From a virus, in the IMG/VR virus record IMGVR_UViG_3300009156_000051, positions 1 to 41,765 of that record: DNA of 41,765 nucleotides, one strand, 5' to 3'. Of this stretch, positions 2,018-18,732 are shown piece by piece; within the stretch, counting starts at the first letter, position 1, and each line of letters begins with the position of its first letter. Both the position numbers and the translations under genes were made by a program. Under the pieces are notes generated by a model. It did no database searches and was not told the DNA's origin. It was given only the letters and a program-made list of their open reading frames with translations.

Positions 2018-2059
2018 AAAAAACGAATGAGAGGAACGTAGATCTTGTGTCCCTCTCAT
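2018..2059 (-). terminator. Hairpin with T-tract overlapping a promoter -10
   Basis: On the minus strand ATGAGAGG (2052-2059) pairs perfectly with CCTCTCAT (2027-2034) and is followed after three bases by six Ts. It can terminate read-through from the 2084-2404 gene. Its upstream arm overlaps the -10 hexamer of the promoter-like element at 2056-2082, so it may instead act as an operator or as the leader of that promoter. Confidence 0.55.
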
Positions 2060-2082
2060 TAAAGGGGAAGTTTTTTCTGCGA
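2056..2082 (-). promoter_or_regulatory. Promoter-like element, copy 12
   Basis: Minus strand TCGCAG at 2077-2082, 13-nt spacer, TTTAAT at 2058-2063, followed by GAGAGG. It has the same layout and spacing as the eleven other copies further right. It faces the structured RNA and the genes at 1706 and below, and is isolated from the main cluster by more than 11 kb. Confidence 0.65.
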
Positions 2083-2083
2083 A

Positions 2084-2404
2084 CTACCTCTTGGTAGATC
2101 TTCTCTGTTGCTGGGGTTTATTCTCTTCTTCGTCCTGACTCTCGCTCTCGTCCTCCGTCCCCGCTTCGTCCTGACTTCCTTCATCAGGCTCTTCTTCGTC
2201 CTCTTTTCGCCCCTCTTCCTCTTCTTCGGAGAGCGCTCTGTCGGCGTCAGAAAGCCGCGCGGCAGCCTTGTCGGCCGTCGTGGAGATCTCGTCGAACATG
2301 TCGGCCAGCTTCCCGAGATCCTCCTCGTCACTGTTCTTCAAGTCCTTCAGCTTGGTAGTCAGTTCCTGTACGGCATTCTTCACCAGATCTGAGCTCTTTG
2401 CCAC
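2084..2404 (-). CDS. Acidic low-complexity protein, 106 aa
   Basis: It starts at GTG 2404 after AGAAAGGG. The first ~60 residues look like an amphipathic helical or coiled-coil region (VKNAVQELTTKLKDLKNS). The rest is a run of Glu/Asp-rich sequence (SEEEEEGRKEDEEEPDEG) ending in a short basic tail, QQQRRSTKR. Such acidic proteins can be DNA mimics or chaperone-like, but nothing here shows that. It is the last gene before a terminator and promoter. Confidence 0.72.
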   Translation of the reverse strand: MAKSSDLVKNAVQELTTKLKDLKNSDEEDLGKLADMFDEISTTADKAAARLSDADRALSEEEEEGRKEDEEEPDEGSQDEAGTEDESESQDEEENKPQQQRRSTKR

Positions 2405-2411
2405 GATGTTT

Positions 2412-2576
2412 CTACCCTTTCTGTTGTGTTTGTTTACTGGACGTCAACATATCGGGTATTGTTCTGGGAATCGACTCGGCGATTTTCGCTTTCATGGTCG
2501 TCCAGGCGACGAATCCAAATAGGATTGCTACGATCCCAAATATCCCCAAGATTAGTGTTACCCATTCCCAGGTCAT
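2412..2576 (-). CDS. Small single-TM protein, 54 aa
   Basis: An ATG-started frame of 54 codons with an N-terminal membrane segment, VTLILGIFGIVAILFGFVAW, preceded by MTWEW and followed by a polar tail. Its start overlaps the stop of the upstream frame in an ATGA arrangement, which indicates coupled translation. It fills the gap between two neighbouring genes exactly. Function unknown; small phage membrane proteins are common in this cluster. Confidence 0.65.
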   Translation of the reverse strand: MTWEWVTLILGIFGIVAILFGFVAWTTMKAKIAESIPRTIPDMLTSSKQTQQKG

Positions 2577-2719
2577 CGTGCAACCCAGGACCAGGGACTA
2601 TCGGTTACCCATAGCGCATACTGCCATTCGGCATTAGGAGTCGGGGGGCGAACAACGAATGCCGTCAATGGAACCATAATCAGATCAGCTTCCCGAACTA
2701 ATATCTGGTTTTGCCTCAT
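2573..2719 (-). CDS. Hypothetical protein, 48 aa
   Basis: The frame is open much further upstream, but that part is out of phase with two better genes, so I keep only the C-terminal 48 codons from ATG 2719, which has GGGGAA upstream. An alternative ATG at 2677 would start just past the end of the 2685-2891 gene. The product has a proline/tryptophan-rich end (PPTPNAEWQYALWVTDSPW). Its stop overlaps the next start (ATGA). No family recognised. Confidence 0.45.
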   Translation of the reverse strand: MRQNQILVREADLIMVPLTAFVVRPPTPNAEWQYALWVTDSPWSWVAR

Positions 2720-2891
2720 TCTCCGTTTCCCCGCGGAGGATTTTCTCGATTCCTTCGGCGTCATGTGCACCGAATCCAGTTTGAGCTTGGACCAGCCACT
2801 GTGCCATCGTACCAATTGCACGATCCACTCGTTCAAGCTTTTCTTCAAGAGCGTCCATCCTCTGATCAATCTGAAGTTTTGGCTCAGCCAT
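2685..2891 (-). CDS. Coiled-coil protein, 68 aa
   Basis: ATG 2891 follows GAAGGTG. Residues about 8-35 (DQRMDALEEKLERVDRAIG) have a heptad pattern typical of a short coiled coil, followed by a less charged segment and an acidic tail. It lies directly after the small membrane protein at 2884-3033, overlapping its stop, so the pair may work together at the membrane, for instance in the manner of holin accessory pairs. That role is an inference. Confidence 0.68.
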   Translation of the reverse strand: MAEPKLQIDQRMDALEEKLERVDRAIGTMAQWLVQAQTGFGAHDAEGIEKILRGETENEAKPDISSGS

Positions 2892-3033
2892 TCGTCACCT
2901 TCTTCTCGATTCGATCCAGCTTGCGCCATTTGGCTACCGCGTAAATCACGCGTAGTGAAATAAGAAAGCCAAGAACGCCCGTAATCTTCTCAGCATCGAG
3001 AAATTGACGGTACTTGAACAGGGTCTTAAACAT
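2884..3033 (-). CDS. Small membrane protein, 49 aa
   Basis: A frame of 49 codons with one hydrophobic segment (ITGVLGFLISLRVIYAVAKW) and a basic cytoplasmic-type tail (RKLDRIEKK). The start ATG overlaps the TAA of the upstream gene and its stop overlaps the start of the coiled-coil gene, so all three are translationally chained. Function unknown. Confidence 0.68.
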   Translation of the reverse strand: MFKTLFKYRQFLDAEKITGVLGFLISLRVIYAVAKWRKLDRIEKKVTNG

Positions 3034-3280
3034 CAATCCGCTCGATCAACCTCGACAAGCGAAAATTGAGCTCACCGAGACGATAAACGCGCTTACGCAA
3101 TTCGGATGTCGCAATCTCTTCTCTCGACGCTTCTTCTGGACTCGGAGGGCGTAGCGCGGGTTCCAAGACGGTTTGTAGTTGGTCGAGAAGTGCACCGAAA
3201 CGCTCGAGCTCCATCGAGAAATGATCGGCTGCGCCTTGTTTAATTGGAGATTCGCTTTCGGAATATGCCAGTTCAGTCAT
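3026..3280 (-). CDS. Helical hypothetical protein, 84 aa
   Basis: An 84-residue, mostly helical and charged protein with leucine repeats (FGALLDQLQTVLEP and ELNFRLSRLIERIDV), likely to oligomerise. Its start overlaps the stop of the upstream gene (ATGA) and its stop overlaps the next start. No family recognised. Confidence 0.7.
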   Translation of the reverse strand: MTELAYSESESPIKQGAADHFSMELERFGALLDQLQTVLEPALRPPSPEEASREEIATSELRKRVYRLGELNFRLSRLIERIDV

Positions 3281-3480
3281 CGTCTCACCGTCCTTGCCGA
3301 AGGAATGTTTATTACTCTCCGTTTTGCCAGCTCCTCGACCACAGCTGTCATCAGTTTCTTGTTGTTATCAGGAACGGACTCCCAAGATCCACGTGACTCG
3401 GGGCGAGTCTTGTAACCGAAATCGGGAGCCAAACGCTCGTACACCTGATGAAATTCTCGAGCAACCTCTTCGGCGGTCAT
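3277..3480 (-). CDS. RyR-domain-like small protein, 67 aa
   Basis: The sequence VAREFHQVYERLAPDFGYKT, then SRGSWESVPDNNKKLM and AVVEEL, follows the pattern of small phage proteins resembling the RyR (ryanodine-receptor repeat) domain: an initial helix with H/Y, a central W-x-x-V-P-x-x-N-K, and a final helix. The domain is known in phages but its role there is not settled. It overlaps the next gene by four bases (ATGA). Confidence 0.78.
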   Translation of the reverse strand: MTAEEVAREFHQVYERLAPDFGYKTRPESRGSWESVPDNNKKLMTAVVEELAKRRVINIPSARTVRR

Positions 3481-3560
3481 TTCGACTTATGTCCCTTCGA
3501 GTTCTTCTTAGGGGCCTGAATCTTCCGTCTCTGCTTCTTCGCCTTCTTACTTTTGATCAT
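3477..3560 (-). CDS. Very basic micro-protein, 27 aa
   Basis: A 27-codon frame with a good ribosome binding site (GAGGAAAGAAGT before ATG). Thirteen of its 27 residues are Lys or Arg. It fits exactly between its neighbours: the TAATG junction upstream and the ATGA junction downstream are both overlaps. It is probably a nucleic-acid-binding or otherwise polyanion-binding peptide, inferred from charge only. Confidence 0.6.
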   Translation of the reverse strand: MIKSKKAKKQRRKIQAPKKNSKGHKSK

Positions 3561-3736
3561 TACTTCTTTCCTCGTTTTCCACCACCTTTCTTCTTCGCTC
3601 TTGTCGGCAGTCCCTTGATCTTCGAGCCTCTCAGCATCTCCTTCGCCTGATCTTTCGACGGTCCACCCTTCTTCTTCGATTTCCCGCCCGCAATCGCACC
3701 GAGGAAACCGGCTTGTTTCTTGGATTTTGGAGGCAT
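3560..3736 (-). CDS. Lysine-rich protein, 58 aa
   Basis: I start it at ATG 3736 (MPPKSKKQAGF) because GGAGGAGTGAA lies right before it; the frame extends eleven codons further without such a site. The protein is lysine- and glycine-rich, ending KKKGGGKRGKK, like histone-tail or DNA-condensing peptides. It is followed immediately by the 27-residue basic gene, so two basic proteins are made in tandem. Function inferred from composition only. Confidence 0.65.
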   Translation of the reverse strand: MPPKSKKQAGFLGAIAGGKSKKKGGPSKDQAKEMLRGSKIKGLPTRAKKKGGGKRGKK

Positions 3737-3737
3737 T

Positions 3738-3983
3738 TCACTCCTCCTCTCGATTCCTCGCAAATCCATAGACAGCCGTTAAACGATCTAGTGCTTGTAC
3801 GTACAGTGCCCGATCTTCAGGATTGGAGAACGTGATTGTTCGTCCATCCGCAAATACGTACTTTTTGTCCAGATCACATTTCATGTAGCCGAGCTCGTCG
3901 TAATGAACGGCTTTGTGTGAACTGTTCGTGCAAATATCGGTAAAGTCTCGAGGATCTTCTGGATCAATGAGTTTTTCTGACAT
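3738..3983 (-). CDS. Hypothetical protein, 81 aa
   Basis: The start ATG at 3983 (MSEKLIDPEDP) is preferred over the TTG two codons earlier. The protein is soluble and acidic, with a central segment HYDELGYMKCDLDKKYVFADG and NPEDRALYVQALDRL after it. Two lone cysteines do not make a metal site. It overlaps the end of the zinc-ribbon gene upstream by 20 bases. No family recognised. Confidence 0.7.
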   Translation of the reverse strand: MSEKLIDPEDPRDFTDICTNSSHKAVHYDELGYMKCDLDKKYVFADGRTITFSNPEDRALYVQALDRLTAVYGFARNREEE

Positions 3984-4119
3984 TACCAATCATCTTTTTC
4001 TCACACCAAGGACAAATCATCTCTTCTTTCGGGCCGTGCCAAGTACCGATCCAACTGTGATTGCAATTTTCACAGTAAAATCGTCCTCCGATTACTTCAA
4101 CGAAAGCTTTTTCTCCCAT
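3964..4119 (-). CDS. Zinc-ribbon protein, 51 aa
   Basis: This 51-residue protein has two CxxC pairs, FYCENCNHSW and MICPWCEKK, about 20 residues apart, which is the classic rubredoxin-like zinc ribbon. Such mini-ribbons often bind nucleic acid or act as protein adaptors. The ribosome binding site is weak, but the coding pattern and position between neighbours are good. It overlaps the next gene by 20 bases. Confidence 0.68.
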   Translation of the reverse strand: MGEKAFVEVIGGRFYCENCNHSWIGTWHGPKEEMICPWCEKKMIGNVRKTH

Positions 4120-4122
4120 ATT

Positions 4123-4747: not shown

Positions 4748-4755
4748 AATTTCTC

Positions 4756-5753: not shown

Positions 5754-5758
5754 AGTCC

Positions 5759-6330: not shown

Positions 6331-6339
6331 CTCTCTCTC

Positions 6340-9300
6340 CTAACTCACAAATTCCCGGAACGAACCGAATTCCTCGATGGTCTTTATCGCCTCTTCTTTC
6401 AAGGCGTCGAAATATGTCATGTCGATCTTCAGATCCGGCATCGACTGAGCAACATTAGCCTGGATCCATTTGTGACCCTTGGTTCCCGTTACCGCGTAGT
6501 ACTTGTCATCTTTGACGCGATAGAGTGTACCTCCTCCTTCTTGTACAGGTACAAAGCGGCCAGCACGGCCGAGATGGTGCATGTTGCGATAATCCAATCC
6601 GTCTTTTCCATCATGTCCCTCTCTATCTAAATACATGGTCCCCTGCAGAACAGTTCGATTCTCGCAGAAGTCGTCGAAATCGAGCTCTTCGCCGGAGAAC
6701 AAGGTCTTGAATACGTAAGGATGTTGGAATTGGGAACCGACGGCAGTCCATTTGTTGTCTTTGCGAGCGATGTAAACCGCGTCGTTCACGAGACATAACT
6801 TGTCGTAGCTGATCTCGTGCTCGAAGTCGTAACCGTACCGCTTTCCGTGATCTATCACGAAGGAGATCGCGTTCGAAGTAGCATCGGGTAGTTTTACCGA
6901 ATCGGTCTTGATGTGTACTACCGAATGTCCTTTGTCTTTGAGATCGTGCTTCAAGTCGATCATATACAGGGCGCCGCGCTTGGCCACAATATTGTCTTTA
7001 TTGCGGTTGTCGCGGAAAGGGTTGGGGAAGGAGGCCGAGGTAAATCCGTAGACGATGTTGATGATGATCTTCAGTGCGTATGCTAATTTGTCGGCTTGAT
7101 TCTCGTCTTTTAGATATGGGGCTAATCGACCGTCCATCATCTTCCTGGCTAAAACGAAATCTCGACGCTTGATAGCCAGCCGGGCCTTCTTGAGATCACT
7201 GAATCTATTAGTGTACTTACCGAAGAGATTGAGGATCTCAATTGTGGTTGGGTGCATAGAAGCAATGTCCAGAAGAGCAACGTTTGAGTAGATCCCGGGT
7301 TCTGCGTAAACGTATCCACCCTCACCGGGATCCTCACCACGATACCAGCTCTTTCCAGCGTCAAATTTATAACCATCAAACTCCTCGCTGAGATCCGTGT
7401 ACACGAAGTACTGCTGGGGATTTCTCTCGTCCCCAAATATGATCTTGGCTGTGTGTCGTTGCGTTGTGTCGTTGACTGTCAGTCCACTCAGTTCCGCTAG
7501 GATCTGGCGAGCGACGAAATCTTCCCAACGATCCTCGAGCACAGCCTCCGTTGCTCGAACATCGTTGACACAGTATTCGACGACTCGTGGCCAATCCTTC
7601 TCGTCTACCGGTTGATCCAAAGGGAAATCCAGTTCCATGTGCAAAATCCCGAGATCAATCTCGAACTTCTTTAAACTTTGCTTGATCGAACTGAAATCCC
7701 AGATATCGGCATACGACAAATTGTACGCCTGAGCGAAAAAAGCATTACGGTTGTTTTCGATGATGATCTTCCGGGTCAGGTTGTACAACTGCTCTACGCT
7801 GTACCCCTGAACGGCGCCATAGAGAATATGATTGTCGAAGCGACGATTGTAGAAGCCGACCAACTTCAACCTCGTCAAGGCCTCAACGTCTTCTTTACTA
7901 GGATTGATCATCCGAACAACCTCATCCTCACCGCGGAATTTCCAGCAGACGACAAATAGATTCGGGTAGACTTCAACGTCAAATATAACCATCCGATCGT
8001 CGTCTACCTCGACAACAGCATCTGCACTAACTTCCGGCTCGGATTGGAACTTCATCGTTTGAACTGTCTTTAGACACGTCGATGCTTGATGCGTGCTGTT
8101 ATTGGCGAAAGCGAGAATACGGGGCCGTAGATCGGTGACGTCATACTTCATCCCGGATTCATGAGCTTCTTCGAGAATATGAGCTATGAAATCGACTGAT
8201 GGCTTGGTACCGGGATGGATCTCTTTTCTCAGATTTCGCTCGATCAACTGCCTAAGACCTTTTTCGCTTGAGATCGTCTTAGCCTTAAGCATCGTCTCCT
8301 TCTTCGGTTTGAGCGGCAACCCACCGTTTATCGATGCGACAGGAATCGAATTACACAGCGTCACTCGTCGTCGTAACGAGGCATCTCCTGTAAATACCTT
8401 GATCTCGATACCCTCGGAATATACCGATGCGAGCTCAGTAGGATCTCCTTCATAATCGTAATGCAGGTGAACGCCACCAGAAGATTTACTGAGCTCGGCG
8501 TAAGTTGCTGGCCACTTGCTTGCGGCTTCAAGATTCCGTTCGAGAGCAGTAACTCCATTAGTCTCTTTCAAGTCGAAGTCGATGATAATGTGTTTTTCAG
8601 GTACTTTTACGAAGTGAATTTCGCTCGTATCAATATCTGAAAGGGTAGTCTTGACGTTTTCCCACTTGCGAGACGGAGCTTCGTTCTTGTTCGCCTTCTG
8701 CGCTGGTTGATTCGCGAAATAGATGTCCAACAGCGACTCCGTCTGGTCCATGACCAGCGAATATAACGGTTGATCGCTGTCAACATCTTTGGGGATCTTG
8801 AACTTCTCCGCGTTGAAACCGAAGTAGACACTGCGGAGTCGTTCGCCGTCTACTTCTCCCCGATCCTTGAATTCGTCGAAGTAGTTGCGGAGCTCTTCAC
8901 GTATCTTGTACTGCGCCCTCGGATTAGTTATTCCGCTTTCGGTGCAGAATTCCTTATAGAACGCATACGCCTGCTTCAAGGTCGTGTAGTTCTGGGATTT
9001 GAATACGTCGTAGTAAGCCTCGATAAAGTTGAAGAAAACGTCGGTCTGCAACATCATTTCCAACGGACGGTAGCCGTTGTAGTAGTTCCTACCCATCTCC
9101 AAATATACCTTTTGACAGTGAGCTGCGATCGCACCTAGCTCAAAGTCGATCCGTTCGATCAAGGTATTGTAGTGACTGACAGGAATTCTTACACCCGTCG
9201 GATGAATATCGATCAGCCTACGTATGATCCCCGATTTGGCATCCGAAATCTTCACCGGTTGATTGGAACCGATGAACAACAATGCCGACGACTTTGCCGT

Positions 9301-10092
9301 GTAACTCGGCTTGTACTTCTCGTTGATCGTCATCCGTTCGTGCGAGACGATCGAGTTCAGCCGAGTATTATCCTCCAGTTTCGACAAATCGCCGTCGTGC
9401 TGAATTGCAACCAGAGGATTGTTCTTGAACGCTTCAGTAGCGAACGTGCTTTCGGAGCGTCCAAGCGCTTTTCCATCGAATGCTGTGGTGTATCCCTCGA
9501 ATAATTTGTGGATTATGTTCAGGATAGTGGACTTACCGGATCCAGCAGGACCATAGAAGACAAAGAATTTCTGGATATTCTTCGATTCTCCCGCCACGAT
9601 GGATCCGATAGCCCACTCTATCTTAGCCCGTTCCTCCACGGAGTACAATGTCCCCACGAGCTCATCCCACGCTGAGATGTCGCCTTCTTCCAGGGCGTAG
9701 CTCAGATGTTTGCTTGCATAGTCAGTTTTCTTGATTTCCGAGTTCGAAAACATGACCTTTTGATCGAGGGGGCGGCTGTTATCACTGATGTTTGCCAAGA
9801 ATTTTCGGAACTGCGCCCATGAGTTAGTGTTAAAAGAGCGCATATACTTGGCGGTATAGTTGACCCCTGTTTCTTCACGCATCCTCTCGACTTCACGTTC
9901 AAGATGCGCGTCGACCAGCCGTTGAACATCGTACTCGTCACGAGACCAAAGACCTTTTTCTTCGTCCCAAATGGCATAAAAGGTCTTCCCCTGTACCATC
10001 AGATCCTGAGAACGCTTAACGATGAAATCAGGGTACAACTCCATACCCTTTTCCTTCGTTTCTCTAGAAAGAATCTGATAAAAGTCCAACAA
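6340..10092 (-). CDS. Helicase-primase-DNA polymerase fusion, 1250 aa
   Basis: Three replication activities appear in one chain. Residues about 115-300 form a D5-type SF3 helicase with Walker A GPAGSGKST (181-189), LLFIGSNQP (271-279) and an arginine finger in SGIIRRL. Residues about 495-600 resemble an archaeo-eukaryotic primase: IIIDFD (502-507), SSGGVHLHY (537-545) and GIEIKV (561-566). Residues about 700-1240 are a family-B polymerase: exonuclease motifs FDVEVYP (704-710), YNRRFDN (748-754) and YCVNDVRATE (840-849), then polymerase motifs LDIASMHP (941-948), KIIINIVYG (1008-1016) and IKTDS (1061-1065). In the last motif the usual first Asp is Lys. Two TTG codons after AAGGGGG are possible starts. 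It should unwind, prime and copy the phage genome. Domain boundaries are approximate. Confidence 0.9.
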   Translation of the reverse strand: MLDFYQILSRETKEKGMELYPDFIVKRSQDLMVQGKTFYAIWDEEKGLWSRDEYDVQRLVDAHLEREVERMREETGVNYTAKYMRSFNTNSWAQFRKFLANISDNSRPLDQKVMFSNSEIKKTDYASKHLSYALEEGDISAWDELVGTLYSVEERAKIEWAIGSIVAGESKNIQKFFVFYGPAGSGKSTILNIIHKLFEGYTTAFDGKALGRSESTFATEAFKNNPLVAIQHDGDLSKLEDNTRLNSIVSHERMTINEKYKPSYTAKSSALLFIGSNQPVKISDAKSGIIRRLIDIHPTGVRIPVSHYNTLIERIDFELGAIAAHCQKVYLEMGRNYYNGYRPLEMMLQTDVFFNFIEAYYDVFKSQNYTTLKQAYAFYKEFCTESGITNPRAQYKIREELRNYFDEFKDRGEVDGERLRSVYFGFNAEKFKIPKDVDSDQPLYSLVMDQTESLLDIYFANQPAQKANKNEAPSRKWENVKTTLSDIDTSEIHFVKVPEKHIIIDFDLKETNGVTALERNLEAASKWPATYAELSKSSGGVHLHYDYEGDPTELASVYSEGIEIKVFTGDASLRRRVTLCNSIPVASINGGLPLKPKKETMLKAKTISSEKGLRQLIERNLRKEIHPGTKPSVDFIAHILEEAHESGMKYDVTDLRPRILAFANNSTHQASTCLKTVQTMKFQSEPEVSADAVVEVDDDRMVIFDVEVYPNLFVVCWKFRGEDEVVRMINPSKEDVEALTRLKLVGFYNRRFDNHILYGAVQGYSVEQLYNLTRKIIIENNRNAFFAQAYNLSYADIWDFSSIKQSLKKFEIDLGILHMELDFPLDQPVDEKDWPRVVEYCVNDVRATEAVLEDRWEDFVARQILAELSGLTVNDTTQRHTAKIIFGDERNPQQYFVYTDLSEEFDGYKFDAGKSWYRGEDPGEGGYVYAEPGIYSNVALLDIASMHPTTIEILNLFGKYTNRFSDLKKARLAIKRRDFVLARKMMDGRLAPYLKDENQADKLAYALKIIINIVYGFTSASFPNPFRDNRNKDNIVAKRGALYMIDLKHDLKDKGHSVVHIKTDSVKLPDATSNAISFVIDHGKRYGYDFEHEISYDKLCLVNDAVYIARKDNKWTAVGSQFQHPYVFKTLFSGEELDFDDFCENRTVLQGTMYLDREGHDGKDGLDYRNMHHLGRAGRFVPVQEGGGTLYRVKDDKYYAVTGTKGHKWIQANVAQSMPDLKIDMTYFDALKEEAIKTIEEFGSFREFVS

Positions 10093-10698: not shown

Positions 10699-11457
10699 TC
10701 ATGAGCCGGAACTGTCTAAGCCCCCCACTTCCTCCTCGAAGCTTTTATTGATCCTGCAAAGCTCGATCTCGAGGTTGTACTTGTCGTTGCGAATGAACAC
10801 GACGTCCTCATCATCAGTGCCGTGTCCAAACTTGGTCAAATTGACCAAATCGACGACTTCGTTCACGTTGTCGAGCGGATTGTCGTCATCGTCTGTGACC
10901 TTGCCGTCGCGAGCGTAATAAGTATACGCCACCTGCCGATATCCGGTCTCGTTATGGGAGTACTCGTCCTGATGAATGACGTAAGGACGCATCTCCTCCT
11001 GCAACACAGCTCGCCGGGCAAGTTCCTTGGGGAAATCCCAACCCTCGTCCTTGTGTGTCACAGGGGGTCGAGCCTTCGGGAACTGCACGCGCCGCGTCGT
11101 CTCCTGCACGGGAACCGGGGGTCGCAAGGGCCTCTCCTCTTCGACCGAGTACCCCTTCTCCTCGACTACCTCCTCGACCGGCGGTTTGGTCTGCGCCGCA
11201 GCTGCTGCTTTGGCCGTGTTGTAGCGCTCCTGATAGACGGTTCGGATCTGCTCGATCTCTTTCTCGGCTTGAGCAAAGATCTCCGCCTTGAGCTTCCGCT
11301 TGCTGTAGCGGTAGCCGTAGAAAAAGCCGAGGCCGAATCCAAACAGGGCACCGGCGGTGAAATATCGCCCCGCAAGTGCCGGATTGATCTGTCGGGTTGC
11401 CTCGGCTACGTCCTCGATACGTTCAGCTACTTGTTCAGCTACTTGGGTCGTCGCCAC
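10699..11457 (-). CDS. Membrane-anchored phage protein, 252 aa
   Basis: GTG 11457 follows AAAGGAGAAATTGAC. A single membrane span at about residues 32-50 (FTAGALFGFGLGFFYGY) is followed by a basic stop-transfer (RYSKRKLKAE), a helical linker, a proline-rich stretch, and a C-terminal domain (about 155-252) with YVIHQDEYSHNETGYRQ, DNPLDNVNEVVD and VVFIRNDKYNLEIEL. The last domain recurs in actinophages without a known function. It overlaps the diverged DUF6353-type gene, so the two membrane proteins are co-expressed. Confidence 0.8.
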   Translation of the reverse strand: MATTQVAEQVAERIEDVAEATRQINPALAGRYFTAGALFGFGLGFFYGYRYSKRKLKAEIFAQAEKEIEQIRTVYQERYNTAKAAAAAQTKPPVEEVVEEKGYSVEEERPLRPPVPVQETTRRVQFPKARPPVTHKDEGWDFPKELARRAVLQEEMRPYVIHQDEYSHNETGYRQVAYTYYARDGKVTDDDDNPLDNVNEVVDLVNLTKFGHGTDDEDVVFIRNDKYNLEIELCRINKSFEEEVGGLDSSGS

Positions 11458-12371
11458 GTCAATTTCTCCTTTGGTACGCTACCGAGCTTGTCGTAAATCA
11501 CGCCATCGACATTGAAATCGAGTAGAATCGATCCTTCATAGCCGTTGACGAAATCCCGAGCAGGCTCTGATCCATTGAAAATATCGAAACTGATGTGGTT
11601 ATCAGTCGATCCATCATCCGAGAGGATCCACCCTACCACAGCACCTGCCGCGGACCTTTCGAGTCCGAGCATGTCGTAGACCTCATTCAAGAACACGTGC
11701 CCACGAGAACGAAGCAGATCATTCGCCCAATTCTGTTGCGAATTGATCAGCATTCGATTGTAATCGGGATTCTTGTTCCACTGTCCAGAAGACTCATCGA
11801 AGAAACGCGCGTAGACCGAGGGCTCATTCGGACCCAACTGCCTGATCGTTCGCTTCTTCTTTGTTTCTGGATCTGTAATCTCGACCTTCTCGATCCCGTA
11901 TCGAAACTCTCGATCTCGTTCTTCTCCGTATCGCTCGATCACACGAGCACGGTACTCCTTGAACCCCTTGTCCAGAGCCGCATAGGCCGCAGTCAACCCA
12001 GCGTTTCGCGTAGTGAGGATCTTGTGCGAGCTCGTCAGAGCAGCGATGGCAAGTCCACCCAGAATAACGGCCGGAGCGTATAGCCTGACGAATTTCACGC
12101 CGGTCTGGAAATAGAGAAGCGTCATATCCTTCGAACGATCACTGTCGTCGTAATCGTTATCTTCCGCAGCGTGCACCGTTCTGACGATCTCACGCTTCGT
12201 TCGCATTTCGGTCAAGACTTCGTGGGCCTTCAACGTGGATCGGCAAGCCAGAACCGTGCCTCCAACCATGCCTGCTACGCCTGCGACGAAAAGCATCTGT
12301 GGTGATGCCTTCTGCGCAAGCAGAGCATTACGGGCAATCCCCCTTCCGATCACCTCTGGAACGAGATTCAT
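11439..12371 (-). CDS. Diverged DUF6353-like membrane protein, 310 aa
   Basis: Residues about 25-45 (MLFVAGVAGMVGGTVLACRSTLKAHE, read in two parts around VGGTVL) and about 100-115 (LYAPAVILGGLAIAAL) form two membrane spans in the places seen in DUF6353 proteins. After them comes the helical LTAAYAALDKGFKEYRARVIERYG, then a domain with NRMLINSQQNWANDLL, FLNEVYDMLGL and GAVVGWIL that parallels the 14378-15193 protein. Function unknown. ATG 12371 has AGAAGGAGTC upstream. DUF6353 assignment is by motif order and would need a profile search. Confidence 0.72.
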   Translation of the reverse strand: MNLVPEVIGRGIARNALLAQKASPQMLFVAGVAGMVGGTVLACRSTLKAHEVLTEMRTKREIVRTVHAAEDNDYDDSDRSKDMTLLYFQTGVKFVRLYAPAVILGGLAIAALTSSHKILTTRNAGLTAAYAALDKGFKEYRARVIERYGEERDREFRYGIEKVEITDPETKKKRTIRQLGPNEPSVYARFFDESSGQWNKNPDYNRMLINSQQNWANDLLRSRGHVFLNEVYDMLGLERSAAGAVVGWILSDDGSTDNHISFDIFNGSEPARDFVNGYEGSILLDFNVDGVIYDKLGSVPKEKLTWRRPK

Positions 12372-13366: not shown

Positions 13367-13615
13367 CTACTGGTCTCCGTTCTTGTCTTTCTGATTCTCG
13401 TACCACTGCCGCGCCTGCTCGATACGGAGTTCGAGATGTTCCGAAGTCTTGTCAACGGCCATCGACGACAGCACGAGACCTCCTGCGGCAACTCTGACTG
13501 CGTCAAAGTTGGTCACAACAGCCACATTGCTGCCGATAATATCGTTGACGATCTTGTGAACACCAAGACCCGTCACGACCTGCGCGGCAAGCTTAGCGAG
13601 AGTAAAAGCAGACAT
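13367..13615 (-). CDS. Conserved small phage protein, 82 aa
   Basis: ATG 13615 (MSAFTLAKLAAQV) follows AAGGAGAAGTTA. The segments VVTGLGVHKIVNDII and DAVRVAAGGLVLSSMAVDKTSEHLE match a small actinophage family I recognise, with one or two weakly hydrophobic helices that may touch the membrane. It is the only gene between a promoter-like element and a terminator, so it is an independent single-gene unit. Function unknown. Confidence 0.8.
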   Translation of the reverse strand: MSAFTLAKLAAQVVTGLGVHKIVNDIIGSNVAVVTNFDAVRVAAGGLVLSSMAVDKTSEHLELRIEQARQWYENQKDKNGDQ

Positions 13616-13641: not shown

Positions 13642-13668
13642 TCATTAAAGAGCAGGTTTTTACTGCGA
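13642..13668 (-). promoter_or_regulatory. Promoter-like element, copy 11
   Basis: Minus strand TCGCAG at 13663-13668, 13-nt spacer, TTTAAT at 13644-13649, followed by GAGAGGTACAC, a stretch shared with the copy at 15959. The gene start at 13615 lies about 28 bases beyond the -10 with only a ribosome binding site between, so here there is no leader structure. Confidence 0.75.
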
Positions 13669-14355: not shown

Positions 14356-14377
14356 AGCATCCGCGGGGCCAACTCCT

Positions 14378-15193
14378 TCAGTCCTGCAGAAATTTCGAGT
14401 GATAGTCCGTGATCGGATGATGCACGAAGTCGATCGTTACGACTGGCCGACTGTCCGGTGACATCGCCGTCGAGAACTTGACTTCTACACGGCTGTTCGC
14501 ATTCCAACCGACTTGATCCGAGTGTGACGTCGGAGGCAGACCGATCTCGTCGTAGAACTCACTCAGACTGACGTACATGAAGTTGAGCAGCTCGTGGTTG
14601 ACCTTGTTCTCGGCCCGCTTGATCTCTTCGATCGAGCTCTGGAAATACCGGCCGCTGTACATGTCGTAACAGAGAACTTCCCCCGTACCGGCCAGGATGA
14701 TCTCTTTGTTGCTCGGCGGATACTTGTTGACACGATCCTGAGCGACAGCATCGTGGATCTTCTGCTCTTCCCTTTCACCGAGCTTGTCGAACACCTTCGA
14801 CTTGTACTCTTGCAGAGCTCGCTCGGAGATACCCGAAGCCACTGTAAGGGCGGCGATCTTGGTCGAGGCGATCCGATTTGCCATGACGATACAGGTAATC
14901 GTGATCACACAGGACCCAAACGGCGGAATATACTCACGCCAGACCAGCTTGATCTTCTGAGGATTGGTCAACGGCTGAATTTCCAGTGGATGCTCGACCA
15001 TATTGGTCAAAGACTTGTCTTTGCGCTGTCTCTCCTCTTCGTCGATGATCCGAGCTGCCTTGAGCGTCGCACGACCGGTCAGAAATGTGGTCGAGAGTGT
15101 ACCGACGACTCCCATACCCGTAAGGATAGTGGTCGAGTTATCGTTGAGAAGGAACTTGACTTGCTGGATCCTTTGAGCCAATCCAAGTAGCAT
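14378..15193 (-). CDS. DUF6353-family membrane protein, 271 aa
   Basis: ATG 15193 follows GAAAGGTATATAG. Residues about 20-45 (TTILTGMGVVGTLSTTFLTG) and 93-113 (GSCVITITCIVMANRIA) are membrane spans. Then come ALTVASGISERALQEYKSKV, a linker, GEVLCYDMYSGRYFQSS, ELLNFMYVSLSEFYDEIGLP and VGWNANSRVEVKFST. This order is that of DUF6353 proteins found in phages of Gram-positive hosts, function unknown. A diverged relative is encoded at 11439-12371. Likely at the inner membrane with the C-terminal domain in the cytoplasm. Confidence 0.8.
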   Translation of the reverse strand: MLLGLAQRIQQVKFLLNDNSTTILTGMGVVGTLSTTFLTGRATLKAARIIDEEERQRKDKSLTNMVEHPLEIQPLTNPQKIKLVWREYIPPFGSCVITITCIVMANRIASTKIAALTVASGISERALQEYKSKVFDKLGEREEQKIHDAVAQDRVNKYPPSNKEIILAGTGEVLCYDMYSGRYFQSSIEEIKRAENKVNHELLNFMYVSLSEFYDEIGLPPTSHSDQVGWNANSRVEVKFSTAMSPDSRPVVTIDFVHHPITDYHSKFLQD

Positions 15194-15204
15194 CTATATA
15201 CCTT

Positions 15205-15378
15205 TCAATTTTGAGGATAGGGTGAACGATCCACTCCGGTGGCGGCGGGATACTTCCTTAGTGCACGTCTCTCTGCTTGCTGTTTGTTTTTTGCCTTGAC
15301 GAACACCGAACGAGACATACCAAGCGGAAAAGCTAACACCACTCGGTACACCTTACGTCTATCTTGTTTGCTTTTCAT
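15205..15378 (-). CDS. Basic hypothetical protein, 57 aa
   Basis: A frame of 57 codons whose ATG overlaps the stop of the small membrane gene (TTATGA). The product is basic with YRVVLAFPLGMSRSVFVKAKNKQQAERRALRKYP, here read in pieces: a beta hairpin then a helix, a common pattern for small nucleic-acid- or protein-binding modules. Function unknown. Confidence 0.65.
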   Translation of the reverse strand: MKSKQDRRKVYRVVLAFPLGMSRSVFVKAKNKQQAERRALRKYPAATGVDRSPYPQN

Positions 15379-15512
15379 AAGTACCTAGGTTTTCTCATTT
15401 CACGCACGAACACCCAGATCAGCCAGAATCCGAAGGTGATGATCGTCATCAGACAATCGCCGATGAACCTCCAGAATCCGTACCGCTTTTCCCGGACAAC
15501 GATCACGTACAT
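15375..15512 (-). CDS. Small membrane protein, paralog of 18017-18142, 45 aa
   Basis: ATG 15512 has GGGAGGTGCCT upstream. After a basic start (VVREKRYGFWRFI) one membrane span runs through DCLMTIITFGFWLIWVFV and ends REMRKPRYL. The same WLIW(V/I)F(V/I)REMR ending occurs in the 41-residue protein at 18017-18142. Such peptides recall small superinfection-exclusion or immunity membrane proteins, but nothing here proves that. It lies downstream of a promoter-like element and a leader hairpin. Confidence 0.72.
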   Translation of the reverse strand: MYVIVVREKRYGFWRFIGDCLMTIITFGFWLIWVFVREMRKPRYL

Positions 15513-15525
15513 AGGCACCTCCCGT

Positions 15526-15586
15526 CAAAAAGAAAACTGAAAGGGCGCTGCTCCTCACAAGCGCGAGGCTGCAGAAATTACCTTTC
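15526..15586 (-). promoter_or_regulatory. Leader hairpin with U-tract (attenuator-like)
   Basis: Just after the -10 of copy 10, GAAAGG (15581-15586) can pair with CCTTTC (15539-15544), enclosing a GCGCT/AGCGC hairpin, and a T-rich tract follows before the gene's ribosome binding site. The layout equals that at 15873-15960 and 16595-16655, with a different stem sequence. It would end or attenuate transcripts started at this promoter. Confidence 0.6.
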
Positions 15587-15588
15587 TT

Positions 15589-15615
15589 TCGTTATACAGC
15601 ATGATTTTGCTGCGA
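15589..15615 (-). promoter_or_regulatory. Promoter-like element, copy 10
   Basis: Minus strand TCGCAG at 15610-15615, 13-nt spacer, TATAAC at 15591-15596, followed by GAAAG. It begins directly after the stop of the 15616-15849 gene and faces the operon of small membrane gene, basic gene, DUF6353 gene and chaperone-like gene. Confidence 0.7.
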
Positions 15616-15849
15616 TTACGAAGCCGTACCGTAACGACGAAACCAAGCGGCGGTATTGGTCTCGTCCATGATCTCGGCAGCTGCTTGTAGAACGTGCTGT
15701 CCGTAAACGCGCTTGTCTTGACGATCGGCGAGAGCCTTTGCGCGCATCGGAACATCTTCACGCAAGACTCGAGGACGATGGGCGAACCACGAGTGATTGG
15801 CCAGGCACTCCAGAACTTCATTCGACTCTTTGTTCCAACCAACGATCAT
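15616..15849 (-). CDS. Hypothetical protein, 77 aa
   Basis: The true start is ATG 15849 (MIVGWNKESNEVL), preceded by GAAAGGAGCCAAT; the frame extends upstream into the leader RNA. The protein is soluble and helical with RVLREDVPMRAKALADRQDK and WFRRYGTAS at the end. I do not recognise it. It has its own promoter-like element and structured leader. Confidence 0.7.
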   Translation of the reverse strand: MIVGWNKESNEVLECLANHSWFAHRPRVLREDVPMRAKALADRQDKRVYGQHVLQAAAEIMDETNTAAWFRRYGTAS

Positions 15850-15872
15850 ATTGGCTCCTTTCAGAGCATAGG

Positions 15873-15960
15873 AAAAAACAAAAAAGAGAGGCTGGGGATA
15901 TGTTTCCAATTCCATTTAACACAGGGTCTGTCGTCAAACGACAGTTTTCGTGTACCTCTC
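15873..15960 (-). ncRNA. Small RNA or attenuating leader
   Basis: The expected transcript from copy 9 begins near GAGAGG (15955-15960), which pairs with CCTCTC (15886-15891) just before a long U-tract (15873-15885). Between them is a perfect 6-bp hairpin (CTGTCG at 15939-15944 with CGACAG at 15928-15933 on the RNA strand). An RNA of about 75-85 nt with paired ends and a terminator-type tail would result, upstream of the gene at 15849. Confidence 0.6.
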
Positions 15961-15985
15961 ATTAAAGGGGAGGTTTTTCTTGCGA
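15959..15985 (-). promoter_or_regulatory. Promoter-like element, copy 9
   Basis: Minus strand TCGCAA at 15980-15985, 13-nt spacer, TTTAAT at 15961-15966, followed by GAGAGGTACAC. The upstream hexamer differs from the consensus in its last base. It starts right at the end of the 15986-16162 gene. Confidence 0.72.
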
Positions 15986-16379: not shown

Positions 16380-16396
16380 GACGGTTCCTTTCGTAG

Positions 16397-16579
16397 TTAC
16401 CATTCGTCTCTATATCGTCTATCTCTTCGAATGCTCAGATATATGTCGAGAATATCTGCAGCATAAAGCAAATAACGCCTCAGAGAAGACGCATTGGTAA
16501 GACGCAGACCTCGAGGAGAAACCTTTTGATACGACTGATAAGACTCTCTCAGAGCTTTGAGCATATCGGTTTCTTCCAT
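16397..16579 (-). CDS. Helical hypothetical protein, 60 aa
   Basis: ATG 16579 (MEETDMLKALRESY) has GAGAGGATCATA upstream; the frame continues eight codons further but into the leader. The protein is basic and helical (SSLRRYLLYAADILDIYLSIRRD). It is the first gene after promoter copy 8 and its leader, and is followed by the Sm-like gene after 17 bases. Confidence 0.65.
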   Translation of the reverse strand: MEETDMLKALRESYQSYQKVSPRGLRLTNASSLRRYLLYAADILDIYLSIRRDRRYRDEW

Positions 16580-16594
16580 TATGATCCTCTCGTC

Positions 16595-16655
16595 GAAAAA
16601 CAAAAATAAGATGAACGATTCACTTACGCTTTCTCAGCCGGTAAGGCCTTCATCT
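16595..16655 (-). ncRNA. Small RNA or attenuating leader
   Basis: AGATGAA (16649-16655) right after the -10 of copy 8 pairs perfectly with TTCATCT (16609-16615), which is followed by a U-tract (to 16595). A small GCC/GGC hairpin lies between. The stem differs from those at 15955 and 15586 but keeps the same position, which supports a conserved RNA architecture. Confidence 0.58.
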
Positions 16656-16681
16656 CATTAAAGGAGATGTTTTTCCTGCGA
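16655..16681 (-). promoter_or_regulatory. Promoter-like element, copy 8
   Basis: Minus strand TCGCAG at 16676-16681, 13-nt spacer, TTTAAT at 16657-16662, followed by GAGATG. Its TCGCAG abuts the T-run of the preceding terminator, so terminator and promoter form one joint module. Confidence 0.75.
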
Positions 16682-16709
16682 AAAAGGAAAGTCCGTGTAG
16701 ACTCTCCTT
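16681..16709 (-). terminator. Rho-independent terminator
   Basis: AAGGAGAGTC pairs with GACTTTCCTT (arms 16700-16709 and 16684-16693) with one G-T wobble and a six-base loop, followed by Ts that run into the next promoter. It ends the 16717-16953 gene. Confidence 0.78.
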
Positions 16710-16716
16710 CTTGGAA

Positions 16717-16953
16717 TTACTTCCAGACGAATAGCTTGAGGTCGCGATGAAGCGCCACAGCCTGATGCCGTTGGGGATGATCTTCGTCGACATCCTCGAG
16801 TTGCAGCTTGATCTCGAAGTAATCGTTCTTCGTTTCGTATACGTTACGAACGATTGCGCGATTCTCGAGATCGACCTGCATGAGGTCGCCGATCTGAAGA
16901 TCCTCCACACGAATAACAGTCTGGGTCTTCTTTCTGCGAAACAACTTAAGCAT
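16717..16953 (-). CDS. Hypothetical protein, 78 aa
   Basis: ATG 16953 follows AAAGGAGAAAA. A basic start (MLKLFRRKKTQ) leads to a beta-rich segment, VEDLQIGDLMQVDLENRAIVRNV, that resembles small barrel folds such as those in KOW or SH3 domains, then a charged helix. It forms a single-gene cassette with promoter copy 7 before it and a terminator after it. Function unknown. Confidence 0.7.
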   Translation of the reverse strand: MLKLFRRKKTQTVIRVEDLQIGDLMQVDLENRAIVRNVYETKNDYFEIKLQLEDVDEDHPQRHQAVALHRDLKLFVWK

Positions 16954-16972
16954 TTTTCTCCTTTAGTAGGTT

Positions 16973-16999
16973 TCATTATAAGCCTGGTAATTCCTGCGA
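16973..16999 (-). promoter_or_regulatory. Promoter-like element, copy 7
   Basis: Minus strand TCGCAG at 16994-16999, 13-nt spacer, TATAAT at 16975-16980, followed by GAAACC. The ATG at 16953 is 22 bases past the -10 with AAAGGAG in between, so the mRNA leader is short. Confidence 0.8.
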
Positions 17000-17008
17000 T
17001 TTGCAGGC

Positions 17009-17044
17009 AAAAAAATAAGAGCCCCGTGTTAGGAGCTCCTATTT
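17009..17044 (-). terminator. Rho-independent terminator
   Basis: AAATAGGAGCTCC pairs with GGGGCTCTTATTT (arms 17032-17044 and 17013-17025) and a run of Ts follows. It ends the 17047-17289 gene, ten bases before promoter copy 7. Confidence 0.82.
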
Positions 17045-17046
17045 GT

Positions 17047-17289
17047 TCACTCGTCATCTATGAGATAAGATGCGAGAGCGGTAAGAAGCAATCCTCTTAC
17101 TCGATAACCTGCCATGACGCCGTTTGAGACGAACATCGGGTACATAGATTCTTTCTCACTGTCCGGGTTTGTTGCATAAGCAACCAGGACCCAGTCAATG
17201 AGCATATCTCCTTCTTCCCAATCGTCGTGCTCAGACAAGACTTCATTCAGCACGGCTTCGATCTTGTCGGATCTTTCCTTAGCTGTCAT
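17047..17289 (-). CDS. Hypothetical protein, 80 aa
   Basis: ATG 17289 (MTAKERSDKIEAVLNEV) has AAGGAGGCGAG upstream; a frame start at 17325 lies inside the promoter. The protein is acidic, with a central segment DWVLVAYATNPDSEKESMYPMF and GYRVRGLLLTALASYL. The fold looks like a small alpha-beta protein. Function unknown. Single-gene cassette. Confidence 0.75.
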   Translation of the reverse strand: MTAKERSDKIEAVLNEVLSEHDDWEEGDMLIDWVLVAYATNPDSEKESMYPMFVSNGVMAGYRVRGLLLTALASYLIDDE

Positions 17290-17321
17290 TCTCGCCTCCT
17301 TGAATATGTGATAGTTGAGTG

Positions 17322-17348
17322 TCATTATAAGGGAGGTAATATCTACGA
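17322..17348 (-). promoter_or_regulatory. Promoter-like element, copy 6
   Basis: Minus strand TCGTAG at 17343-17348, 13-nt spacer beginning ATATTACCTCCC, TATAAT at 17324-17329. A 15-base part of this element recurs in the opposite orientation at 14244-14258. Confidence 0.8.
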
Positions 17349-17350
17349 CG

Positions 17351-17379
17351 AAAAAAGAGAGTCCATGATTTAGACTCTC
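17351..17379 (-). terminator. Rho-independent terminator
   Basis: GAGAGTC pairs with GACTCTC (arms 17373-17379 and 17357-17363) over a nine-base loop, followed by six Ts. It ends the 17388-17687 gene. The loop and stem are nearly identical to the terminator at 17735. Confidence 0.82.
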
Positions 17380-17387
17380 CTTTTGAA

Positions 17388-17687
17388 TTACTGTTTGACC
17401 AGGTAGTCAGACGGAATCTCTTCGTCGTTGTCGAACAGCTCCAAATGTCCACCGTTGATCTCGGAAAGATGATTCATGAACTTCGCGAAATCGTTGTACA
17501 CCTTCTCTTCCTTCTTGGTCCATTGGATCATCAAGGGCGTGCTGGGATCCCACTGGGAACCCGTTCTTTCCATGTGATCGCTTTGAGCCTTGAAGAAAGC
17601 TTCTTGCGCACGATTATACGTAGTTGCAAAATCATCGTCGAGGATCAGGTGCAACTTTGAGCCGTAAACAGCGTAAATAGATTGCAT
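17388..17687 (-). CDS. Hypothetical protein, 99 aa
   Basis: ATG 17687 follows GAAAGGAGAGAG. A soluble protein with YAVYGSKLHLILDDDFATTYNR at the start, a helical middle (EEKVYNDFAKFMNHL) and an acidic end. It has a short mRNA leader after promoter copy 5 and a terminator close behind. Family not recognised. Confidence 0.75.
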   Translation of the reverse strand: MQSIYAVYGSKLHLILDDDFATTYNRAQEAFFKAQSDHMERTGSQWDPSTPLMIQWTKKEEKVYNDFAKFMNHLSEINGGHLELFDNDEEIPSDYLVKQ

Positions 17688-17708
17688 CTCTCTCCTTTCA
17701 AATAGGTT

Positions 17709-17735
17709 TCATTATAAGGGATGTAATATCTACGA
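17709..17735 (-). promoter_or_regulatory. Promoter-like element, copy 5
   Basis: Minus strand TCGTAG at 17730-17735, 13-nt spacer beginning ATATTACATCCC, TATAAT at 17711-17716, then GAAACC. Only a few bases differ from copy 6. Confidence 0.8.
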
Positions 17736-17766
17736 AAAAAAGAGAGTCCATGATTTAGACTCTCTT
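17735..17766 (-). terminator. Rho-independent terminator
   Basis: AGAGAGTC pairs with GACTCTCT (arms 17758-17765 and 17741-17748) and a T-run follows that ends at promoter copy 5. It closes the 17793-17912 gene. Confidence 0.8.
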
Positions 17767-17792
17767 CTTCGAGCCGTCGAGCTCTGGTGATG

Positions 17793-17912
17793 CTATGAAT
17801 TGTCTTCTGCGCGGATAGCCGCCCAGGCGTAGTAGACCATGGCCGCACACAGGAATGCGTACGTACCAGGCCAACGCCGGACATGCCGACCGAAAGCACG
17901 AAGAATAACCAT
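17793..17912 (-). CDS. Small membrane-type peptide, 39 aa
   Basis: ATG 17912 follows AAAGGAGAAATT. The 39 residues have a basic start (RAFGRHVRRWPG) and one moderately hydrophobic segment (TYAFLCAAMVYYAWAAI) ending RAEDNS. A single-span inner-membrane peptide is likely. Its cassette has a promoter-like element before and a terminator after. Function unknown. Confidence 0.68.
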   Translation of the reverse strand: MVILRAFGRHVRRWPGTYAFLCAAMVYYAWAAIRAEDNS

Positions 17913-17934
17913 AATTTCTCCTTTGTCGAGGTTC

Positions 17935-17961
17935 TCGTTATAGACCATGTATTTTCTGCGA
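17935..17961 (-). promoter_or_regulatory. Promoter-like element, copy 4
   Basis: Minus strand TCGCAG at 17956-17961, 13-nt spacer beginning AAAATACATGG, TATAAC at 17937-17942, then GAGAAC. Confidence 0.75.
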
Positions 17962-17971
17962 ATTTGCAGGG

Positions 17972-18006
17972 AAAAAAGGAAAATCCGGGTTTTGGACTCT
18001 CCTTTT
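17972..18006 (-). terminator. Rho-independent terminator
   Basis: AAAGGAGAGTCC pairs with GGATTTTCCTTT (arms 17994-18005 and 17975-17986), largely matched, and six Ts follow. It closes the 18017-18142 gene. Confidence 0.8.
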
Positions 18007-18016
18007 GAATTGCACG

Positions 18017-18142
18017 TTACCTCAGAACGAGGACGTTATTGCGCCTACGCATTTCTCGAATGAAGATCCAGATCAACCACAGTCCGCCAGTTATGCAGAC
18101 CAGGATGACATCCAGAACAAACTTGAAAAATCCGTAGTTCAT
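18017..18142 (-). CDS. Small membrane protein, paralog of 15375-15512, 41 aa
   Basis: ATG 18142 follows AAGGAGGAATT. One membrane span (VLDVILVCITGGLWLIWIF) ends in IREMRRRNNVLVLR, the same LWLIW-F-REMR ending as the 45-residue protein at 15375-15512. Both sit in their own promoter-driven units. A role at the host membrane, for example against superinfecting phage, is a guess from size and topology. Confidence 0.7.
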   Translation of the reverse strand: MNYGFFKFVLDVILVCITGGLWLIWIFIREMRRRNNVLVLR

Positions 18143-18168
18143 AATTCCTCCTTAAGATATATTACATT

Positions 18169-18195
18169 TCATTATATACTATGTATTTTCTGCGA
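18169..18195 (-). promoter_or_regulatory. Promoter-like element, copy 3
   Basis: Minus strand TCGCAG at 18190-18195, 13-nt spacer beginning AAAATACATAG, TATAAT at 18171-18176, then GAAATG. It abuts the T-run of the terminator upstream. Confidence 0.78.
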
Positions 18196-18231
18196 AAAAA
18201 CTAAGGCCCCGCCGCATGGGGGCCCCAGTTT
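18195..18231 (-). terminator. Strong terminator directly after promoter copy 2
   Basis: AAACTGGGGCCCC pairs with GGGGCCTTAGTTT (arms 18219-18231 and 18198-18210), with two mismatched positions, followed by six Ts. It starts only about eight bases beyond the -10 of copy 2, so a transcript from that promoter would end after roughly 40 nt without crossing any gene. Confidence 0.8.
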
Positions 18232-18236
18232 GTCTC

Positions 18237-18263
18237 TCATTATATGCGATGTAATATCTGCGA
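18237..18263 (-). promoter_or_regulatory. Promoter-like element, copy 2
   Basis: Minus strand TCGCAG at 18258-18263, 13-nt spacer beginning ATATTACATCG, TATAAT at 18239-18244, then GAGAG. It drives no gene before the terminator at 18195. The 73 bases to its right are AT-rich and hold only an imperfect CGAAAA/TTTTCG hairpin around CCCCGGGG. Confidence 0.76.
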
Positions 18264-18336
18264 CTTTGAGCGAAAATACTCCCCGGGGTTTTTTCGGAAA
18301 ATGAAAAAAATCAATCCATGTTTGAAATGCGAAGTC

Positions 18337-18375
18337 AAAAAAATATGAAAGGCCGCGTATTCTGCGGCCCTCCAT
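18337..18375 (-). terminator. Rho-independent terminator
   Basis: ATGGAGGGCCGC pairs with GCGGCCTTTCAT (core arms 18364-18369 and 18351-18356), and a run of seven Ts follows. It ends the 18400-18684 gene. Confidence 0.82.
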
Positions 18376-18399
18376 ATCTCGATCTCTCTCGGCTGCCTG

Positions 18400-18684
18400 T
18401 TATCTGATCCGAGTCACCATGTTCCACGCTCGAGACGTGATCACGTTGCCGAGATGCTCATGCCTGATGACCATGATCATTCCCACGAAGTTCGCTACAA
18501 TGGCCGCCATCGTATCTCTGCTCACAGATTCCGGTTTTTCTTCTTCCTTCATTCTATGCAGTTTCACGATCGCGTCCAAAGTTTGCGTGTACTCCTGAGA
18601 ACCGATTGCATGGTTCTTCAGCTCACGAACTGCTCGGTCGATCTCTAGTTCGAGCGGAGTTGGCTCTCTCACCCTAGAAAACAT
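18400..18684 (-). CDS. Conserved actinophage protein, 94 aa
   Basis: ATG 18684 follows AAAGGAGGTCT. A helical N-terminal half (ELEIDRAVRELKNHAIGS) leads to LHRMKEEEKPESVSRDT, then a membrane-like segment (MAAIVANFVGMIMVIRHEHL) and NVITSRAWNMV. I recognise this order in many phages of Actinomycetota and relatives, where it lies close after tail genes. Function unknown, probably membrane-associated. It has its own promoter-like element and terminator. Confidence 0.82.
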   Translation of the reverse strand: MFSRVREPTPLELEIDRAVRELKNHAIGSQEYTQTLDAIVKLHRMKEEEKPESVSRDTMAAIVANFVGMIMVIRHEHLGNVITSRAWNMVTRIR

Positions 18685-18705
18685 AGACCTCCTTTAGATA
18701 TGATC

Positions 18706-18732
18706 TCATTATAGGGCAAGATTTACTCGCGA
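18706..18732 (-). promoter_or_regulatory. Promoter-like element, copy 1
   Basis: Minus strand TCGCGA at 18727-18732, 13-nt spacer, TATAAT at 18708-18713, then GAGATC. The element overlaps the last ten bases of the upstream gene. It marks the border between the tail operon and the small-gene cassettes. Confidence 0.75.

Follow-up and report, generated by a model that had tools for sequence, protein, structure and literature searches.

Repeated elements in a siphovirus genome

This analysis concerns a viral DNA of 41,765 nucleotides (nt) (IMG/VR record IMGVR_UViG_3300009156_000051, positions 1 to 41,765; the whole stretch is referred to as the window) and a promoter-like element repeated in it, composed of TCGCAG or a close variant, 13 nt of spacer and a TATAAT-like hexamer followed by GA. 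The window represents a siphovirus, with a terminase, a portal, a capsid/protease, a tape measure protein and a DNA primase/polymerase of phrog_4210 (6340..10092, minus strand), which is not part of the promoter and was used as the lineage marker for collecting relatives. Seen from the DNA polymerase gene, the contig is truncated at its downstream side. Searching the phage collection with the window at the nucleotide level returned no match, and the Rfam and transfer RNA (tRNA) scans of the window gave no hits.

Scanning the window with TCG[CT][AG][AG]-N13-T[AT]TAA[TC]-GA identified the element at the twelve places reported in an earlier note on this DNA, which gave their left ends including the trailing GA. 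All copies are on the minus strand, the coding strand of the nearby genes, and the distance of 13 nt between the hexamers is identical in 12 of 12; on the plus strand there are zero copies of TCGCRG-N13-TWTAAY-GA. With a 27-nt weight matrix the twelve sites reach 30.8-38.7. The runner-up on the two strands has 7.1 and the maximum over 50 first-order Markov shuffles is 13.9, so the motif lies far above chance and is not as frequent in shuffled sequence. The matrix was derived from the same twelve sites that it scores, but the element also recurs in independent genomes, with zero hits on the opposite strand. Conservation in the window comprises TCGCRG, WAWWAC with an invariant C at position 12, a T at position 14, and TWTAAYGA-A. 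The previously noted spacer preference WAWWAC and the GARA behind the hexamer are thus both real; conservation is broader than had been described, and GARA appears to represent the initial bases of the transcript. At 23 nt upstream of the hexamer, where a -35 element would be expected, the window shows no conservation; the only box lies 13 nt away, which is too short for a -35/-10 pair. An inverted repeat that surrounds the hexamer in part of the window copies was seen by eye only and was dropped.

Most copies precede small genes. Copy 1 (TCGCGA...TATAATGA; 18706..18732) lies before a gene for a 94-residue protein (18400-18684), copy 2 (18237..18263) before a terminated RNA of ~43 nt, copy 3 (18169..18195) before the gene of a small membrane protein (18017-18142, 41 residues) and copy 4 (TATAAC; 17935..17961) before a 39-residue frame (17793-17912). 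Copies 5 (17709..17735) and 6 (17322..17348) both have TCGTAG and abut an upstream terminator; they precede genes 17388-17687 (99 residues) and 17047-17289 (80 residues), respectively, and copy 7 (16973..16999) precedes gene 16717-16953 (78 residues). Three copies stand before a leader RNA and a gene: copy 8 (TTTAAT; 16655..16681; gene 16397-16579, 60 residues), copy 9 (TCGCAA, TTTAAT; 15959..15985; gene 15616-15849, 77 residues) and copy 10 (TATAAC; 15589..15615; gene 15375-15512, 45 residues). Copies 11 (13642..13668) and 12 (2056..2082), both with TTTAAT, precede gene 13367-13615 (82 residues) and a 41-nt hairpin RNA, respectively. The structural module, in the window as well as in phage Gordon, contains no copy. 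The membrane proteins of 41-45 residues encoded at 18017-18142 (..GLWLIWIFIREMR) and 15375-15512 (..GFWLIWVFVREMR), each behind its own copy, are paralogous.

Conservation, drift and predicted start sites across the lineage

The phrog_4210 search identified relatives among phages of Gordonia, Rhodococcus (ReqiPepy6), Arthrobacter, Streptomyces, Curtobacterium, Microbacterium, Faecalibacterium and Lactococcus, and also 80 IMG/VR loci. Nearly all relatives scanned have copies of the element, on the coding strand only: taken as the 29-nt TCGCRnnAWWWACATGnnnTATAAT|GAGA, it was found at 452 distinct sites in 86 related loci (31-59% GC; hosts including Gordonia, Rhodococcus, Arthrobacter, Streptomyces, Microbacterium, Faecalibacterium and Lactococcus) and at 0 sites on the opposite strand. 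The consensus of 280 sites is TCGC(A/G)nnAAWWACATGnnnTATAAT(G/A)(A/G)(G/A)A, with strong conservation at +1 to +4. ReqiPepy6, Kerry, Mudcat, SheRa, 1706, P078, Gordon, Camille, FP_oengus and contig89 have ~7-16 copies each. The copies are mainly located in the small-gene block that separates the tail genes from those for replication, and often directly adjoin a terminator on their upstream side; in 34 of 61 loci one is found ~907 nt ahead of the RNA polymerase gene described below. A repeated operator or a replication or packaging site could also be repeated, intergenic and invariant in its spacing, but we find this explanation hardly credible in view of the strict orientation with the genes, the short distance to the ribosome sites (the median leader measures 25-26 nt), the back-to-back terminators upstream, and the RNA structures that begin at the end of the element. 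The promoter-like nature claimed before is upheld.

Copies within one phage drift together, hexamer included (within-genome identity 0.905 vs 0.850 shuffled, z=12). The hexamer of FP_oengus is mostly CTTTAT, followed by GG, the copies of 1706 read TATAGT-AGAAAG and those of Camille TATGRT; thus, as FP_oengus and 1706 illustrate, a -10 TATAAT is not kept across phages. Even 1706 and P078, which both infect Lactococcus lactis, differ, with nnCACATG...TATAGT in the former vs TTTTAAG...TATAAT in the latter. Concerted drift, together with the difference between phages of the same host, is not easily explained by a host sigma factor, while a phage polymerase recognizing the element as a whole fits.

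The position of the start is suggested by the RNAs. At 59 sites the stretch that begins at motif positions 22-26 pairs with the arm just before a U-tract, compared to 11.8+-4.5 in controls in which the downstream halves were swapped between genomes; with a stricter pairing score the numbers are 25 vs 1.0, and a terminator-pairing RNA is present in 46 of 86 genomes. In four of the five window RNAs the first paired base of the fold is the first G after the hexamer. All five are predicted on the minus strand: a small RNA directly upstream of copy 3 (18196..18238; G+C hairpin and U-tract, fold z -3.7), leader or small RNAs at 16597..16656 (the 5' end GAGAUGAA pairs with UUCAUCUU before the U-tract), 15878..15960 (5' GAGAGGU pairs with GCCUCUC before UUUUUU, fold z -3.7) and 15530..15590 (5' GAAAG.. 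paired with the arm before the U-tract), and a small RNA at 2017..2057 (GAGAGGGAC pairs with GUUCCUCUC before the U-tract, fold z -3.6). In all loci taken together, this class with a 5' end paired to the arm before the U-tract numbers ~75 sites; the inner structures differ and a gene often follows closely. Such RNAs could be attenuators, stable RNAs or decoys.

Additionally, eight relatives have a tRNA gene whose start lies 1-8 nt past the hexamer, so that almost no 5' trimming would be needed. In most of these cases the acceptor arm would be truncated if transcription began, as with sigmaA, 7 nt downstream. These tRNA or tRNA-like genes are those at L250:1451, L252:876, L065:3334, L260:5314, L297:579, L310:1537, L263:2556 and L084:8800 (locus:position). 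We infer that +1 is the purine behind TATAAT or one of up to three bases before it. A start directly behind the hexamer would be too close for sigmaA, which initiates 6-8 nt downstream of the -10 element.

In the middle promoters of phage T4 a MotA box lies ~13 nt upstream of TATAAT. By analogy, the elements could be promoters of the host sigmaA RNA polymerase with a genuine -10 TATAAT, at which a phage activator bound to TCGC...ACATG replaces the -35 contact. The hexamer indeed matches the sigmaA -10, the distance fits the MotA geometry, and the genes concerned show no other visible promoter type. Nonetheless, we regard this explanation as improbable: the hexamer shifts in concert within a phage (CTTTAT, TATAGT) and, unlike in T4, drifts with the phage, the predicted starts follow it directly (a +7 start would truncate the tRNA acceptor arms), positions +1 to +4 are strongly conserved, and no separate activator was identified, with no MotA relative seen, albeit without a MotA profile search. 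Sigma region 2 (PF04542) was found in 0 of 15 records, with the control positive in 10 genomes, and T7-type RNA polymerase (PF00940) likewise in 0 of 15 records, though here the control matched nowhere. The proposal of the earlier note that TCGCAG is a separate activator, repressor or sigma site beside a host -10 is therefore not supported, given the drift of the hexamer with the whole element, the predicted 5' ends directly behind it and the lack of sigma region 2 in the 15 records. Its supposition that the specificity factor is encoded by the phage agrees with our assignment of this role to a single-chain RNA polymerase with built-in helix-turn-helix (HTH) modules.

The phrog_4291 protein as the probable reader of the element

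phrog_4291 comprises proteins of ~900 residues present in all named relatives examined, mostly encoded at the genome end. They are found in 250 phage records, with a genus tally equal to that of the full-length DNA polymerase, and are annotated as "RNA-dependent RNA polymerase", in many SEA-PHAGES records as "helix-turn-helix DNA-binding domain protein", and in the GenBank entry of 1706 as "structural protein". SGADFDGD, which agrees with the catalytic signature DxDGD, is invariant in 57 distinct members. A near-invariant HYGxxRxSGRYPWGSG tag is followed by two tandem HTHs, and a third HTH occupies the C-terminal end; Pfam relates these modules to HTH_23 or describes them as sigma70 region 4-like. 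A phmmer search of the polymerase against the PDB gave no match, and a fold search was needed. The AlphaFold2 model (predicted local distance difference test, pLDDT, 79; predicted TM-score, pTM, 0.58) was matched by Foldseek to QDE-1 (7y7r, E-value 1.2e-8) and to gp64 of phage P23-45 (8f72, E-value 9.7e-7), with low TM-scores (0.2-0.35), and also to the gp62 RNA polymerase of a Thermus phage. On the strength of the catalytic signature and the fold, phrog_4291 appears to be a single-chain RNA polymerase with two double-psi beta-barrels (two-barrel), similar to QDE-1 and YonO. The enzyme is probably carried in the virion, the hints being the label of the 1706 copy and the N-terminal tag. The tag (e.g. 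L086:38289) resembles H(Y/F)GVKGMKWGVR of head-module proteins (window 37429-38481; L122:10, L122:2190), and the shared sequence may be a capsid-targeting signal.

An exact-motif scan, made independently of any gene, revealed phrog_4291 on 27 of the 29 motif-bearing IMG/VR contigs of at least 36.9 kb; on the two remaining ones the sequence breaks off 3 and 9 kb past the DNA polymerase. Bacterial genomes totalling 257 Gb yielded the exact motif in no more than 8 stretches, most of them phage-like contigs with several copies, and the polymerase is present in 5 of the 8 genomes. A contig binned as Saccharibacteria (L333-L334) has 10 promoter copies and no polymerase, and ends before the replication genes; it is possibly a phage of this phylum or a case of mis-binning.

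The second HTH (HTH2) varies together with the box in several lineages. Among TCGC phages its helix reads, with few exceptions, (N/P/S)ES(S/T)(V/I)R, while divergent helices accompany divergent boxes in L054 (PTSTYK, TAAC-type box) and P078 (SPGSVT, TTTT), the latter having only one phage as a relative by DNA polymerase. Phages with mostly TCGT carry SDHTVK (L072) or NDHTVA (L261), and SEGT(V/I)R goes with TCGT in L065 and L068. This supports, but does not prove, a contact of HTH2 with the TCGC box. The TCGC and ACA boxes might instead be read by a second phage factor, with the phage polymerase as the enzyme and its HTHs in another role, a variant of the same assignment as far as the enzyme is concerned. 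To this we give a small but real chance: some relatives have other small proteins annotated as HTH (Mudcat gp42, 1706 gp64) and it has been left open whether YonO requires factors (Forrest 2017, PMC5467207), but the HTH2 helix covaries with the box and the enzyme already possesses three HTHs.

Altogether, each element is very probably a complete promoter of the phage's own polymerase, phrog_4291, read by its HTHs and serving the early genes and the RNA polymerase operon. The promoter would extend from about -25 to +4, with +1 set at the purine that immediately follows the hexamer. TCGC (-25 to -22) and ACA (-14 to -12), one helical turn apart, would be bound as duplex by the HTH modules, TATAAT (-6 to -1) would be melted, and the RNA would begin with GARA. 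The polymerase, probably brought in with the virion, would transcribe the small early genes, several leader or small RNAs and its own operon; the early timing of these genes is likewise our inference. More generally, we lean towards the view that a large group of siphophages of Actinobacteria and Firmicutes injects a sigma-free, single-chain two-barrel RNA polymerase, labelled in most genomes only as an "HTH protein"; that this enzyme recognizes a bipartite duplex box with its own HTHs, melts TATAAT with its core and initiates immediately behind it; and that enzyme and promoter have co-evolved many specificities.

Several points weigh against this assignment. TATAAT is the sigmaA -10 consensus of the host in most lineages, and the pTM of the phrog_4291 model is modest. 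The covariation is imperfect (L277 has EGTVR with TCGC, and L253 has NDHTVA with CGC), and the association between loss of the HTH2 arginine and change of the box (Fisher p=3e-4) rests on hand-scored counts without phylogenetic correction. The phrog_4291 search, which matched the relatives, gave no match in the window, the contig of which ends 6.3 kb after the DNA polymerase. Finally, co-occurrence alone does not single out the RNA polymerase, since the genes for DNA and RNA polymerase both belong to the core set; it is the drift that led to the choice of the RNA polymerase as the reader.

Elsewhere in the window, the genes at 11439-12371 and 14378-15193 encode phrog_2152 paralogues, the first of which matches Pfam DUF6353; in FP_oengus three proteins are annotated as DUF6353.

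Relation to known polymerases and promoters

Promoters of T7-type phages are compact, have a TATA box directly before a purine-rich start and drift in concert between phages. The element, with its predicted start, resembles them in all these respects, but the polymerase has an unrelated fold and the element is longer (29 nt), with an upstream box at -25.

Among two-barrel enzymes of phages, RNA polymerases of the Thermus siphovirus P23-45 each have their own short promoter motif, AT-rich and GC-rich motifs having been mapped for the virion polymerase gp96 and the non-virion polymerase gp64 (PMC10770324); gp64 is also a fold match of phrog_4291. The latter differs in its N- and C-terminal HTHs, in not being fused to a tape measure protein and, as far as the published description of the P23-45 motifs goes, in its motif. 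The two-barrel virion polymerase gp66 of the crAss-like phage phi14:2 is delivered for early genes (Drobysheva 2021, as presented in PMC10770324), as would be phrog_4291, for which virion delivery is a prediction. Two-barrel phage polymerases as such (YonO, crAss-like gp66, P23-45 gp96 and gp64) are thus already known, while the pairing of the motif with phrog_4291 is new in the literature searched, in which, with subscription papers mostly outside the search, we found no paper on this motif or on phrog_4291 promoters. This pairing explains a mis-annotated core gene and reveals a likely transcription programme for ~250 sequenced actinobacterial, Lactococcus, Faecalibacterium and oral phage records; the polymerase-promoter pairs may also be mutually orthogonal in Gram-positive bacteria.

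The best-studied phage enzyme of this polymerase type is YonO of the Bacillus phage SPbeta, a phage-encoded, single-chain, DNA-dependent two-barrel RNA polymerase of ~100 kDa, as phrog_4291 is predicted to be; the likeness between the two is one of kind. YonO transcribes one late operon, from a promoter whose sequence was left undetermined (Forrest 2017, PMC5467207), and the region upstream of yonK shows no obvious copy of the element by eye, the exact mapped start not having been located. The phrog_4291 phages, in contrast, have many dispersed promoters with a clear consensus, placed before small early-type genes. With the promoter and the cofactor need of YonO left open in 2017, the present consensus, together with its hundreds of naturally occurring variants and the enzymes that go with them, makes promoter recognition by a sigma-free relative of the cellular RNA polymerase directly testable.

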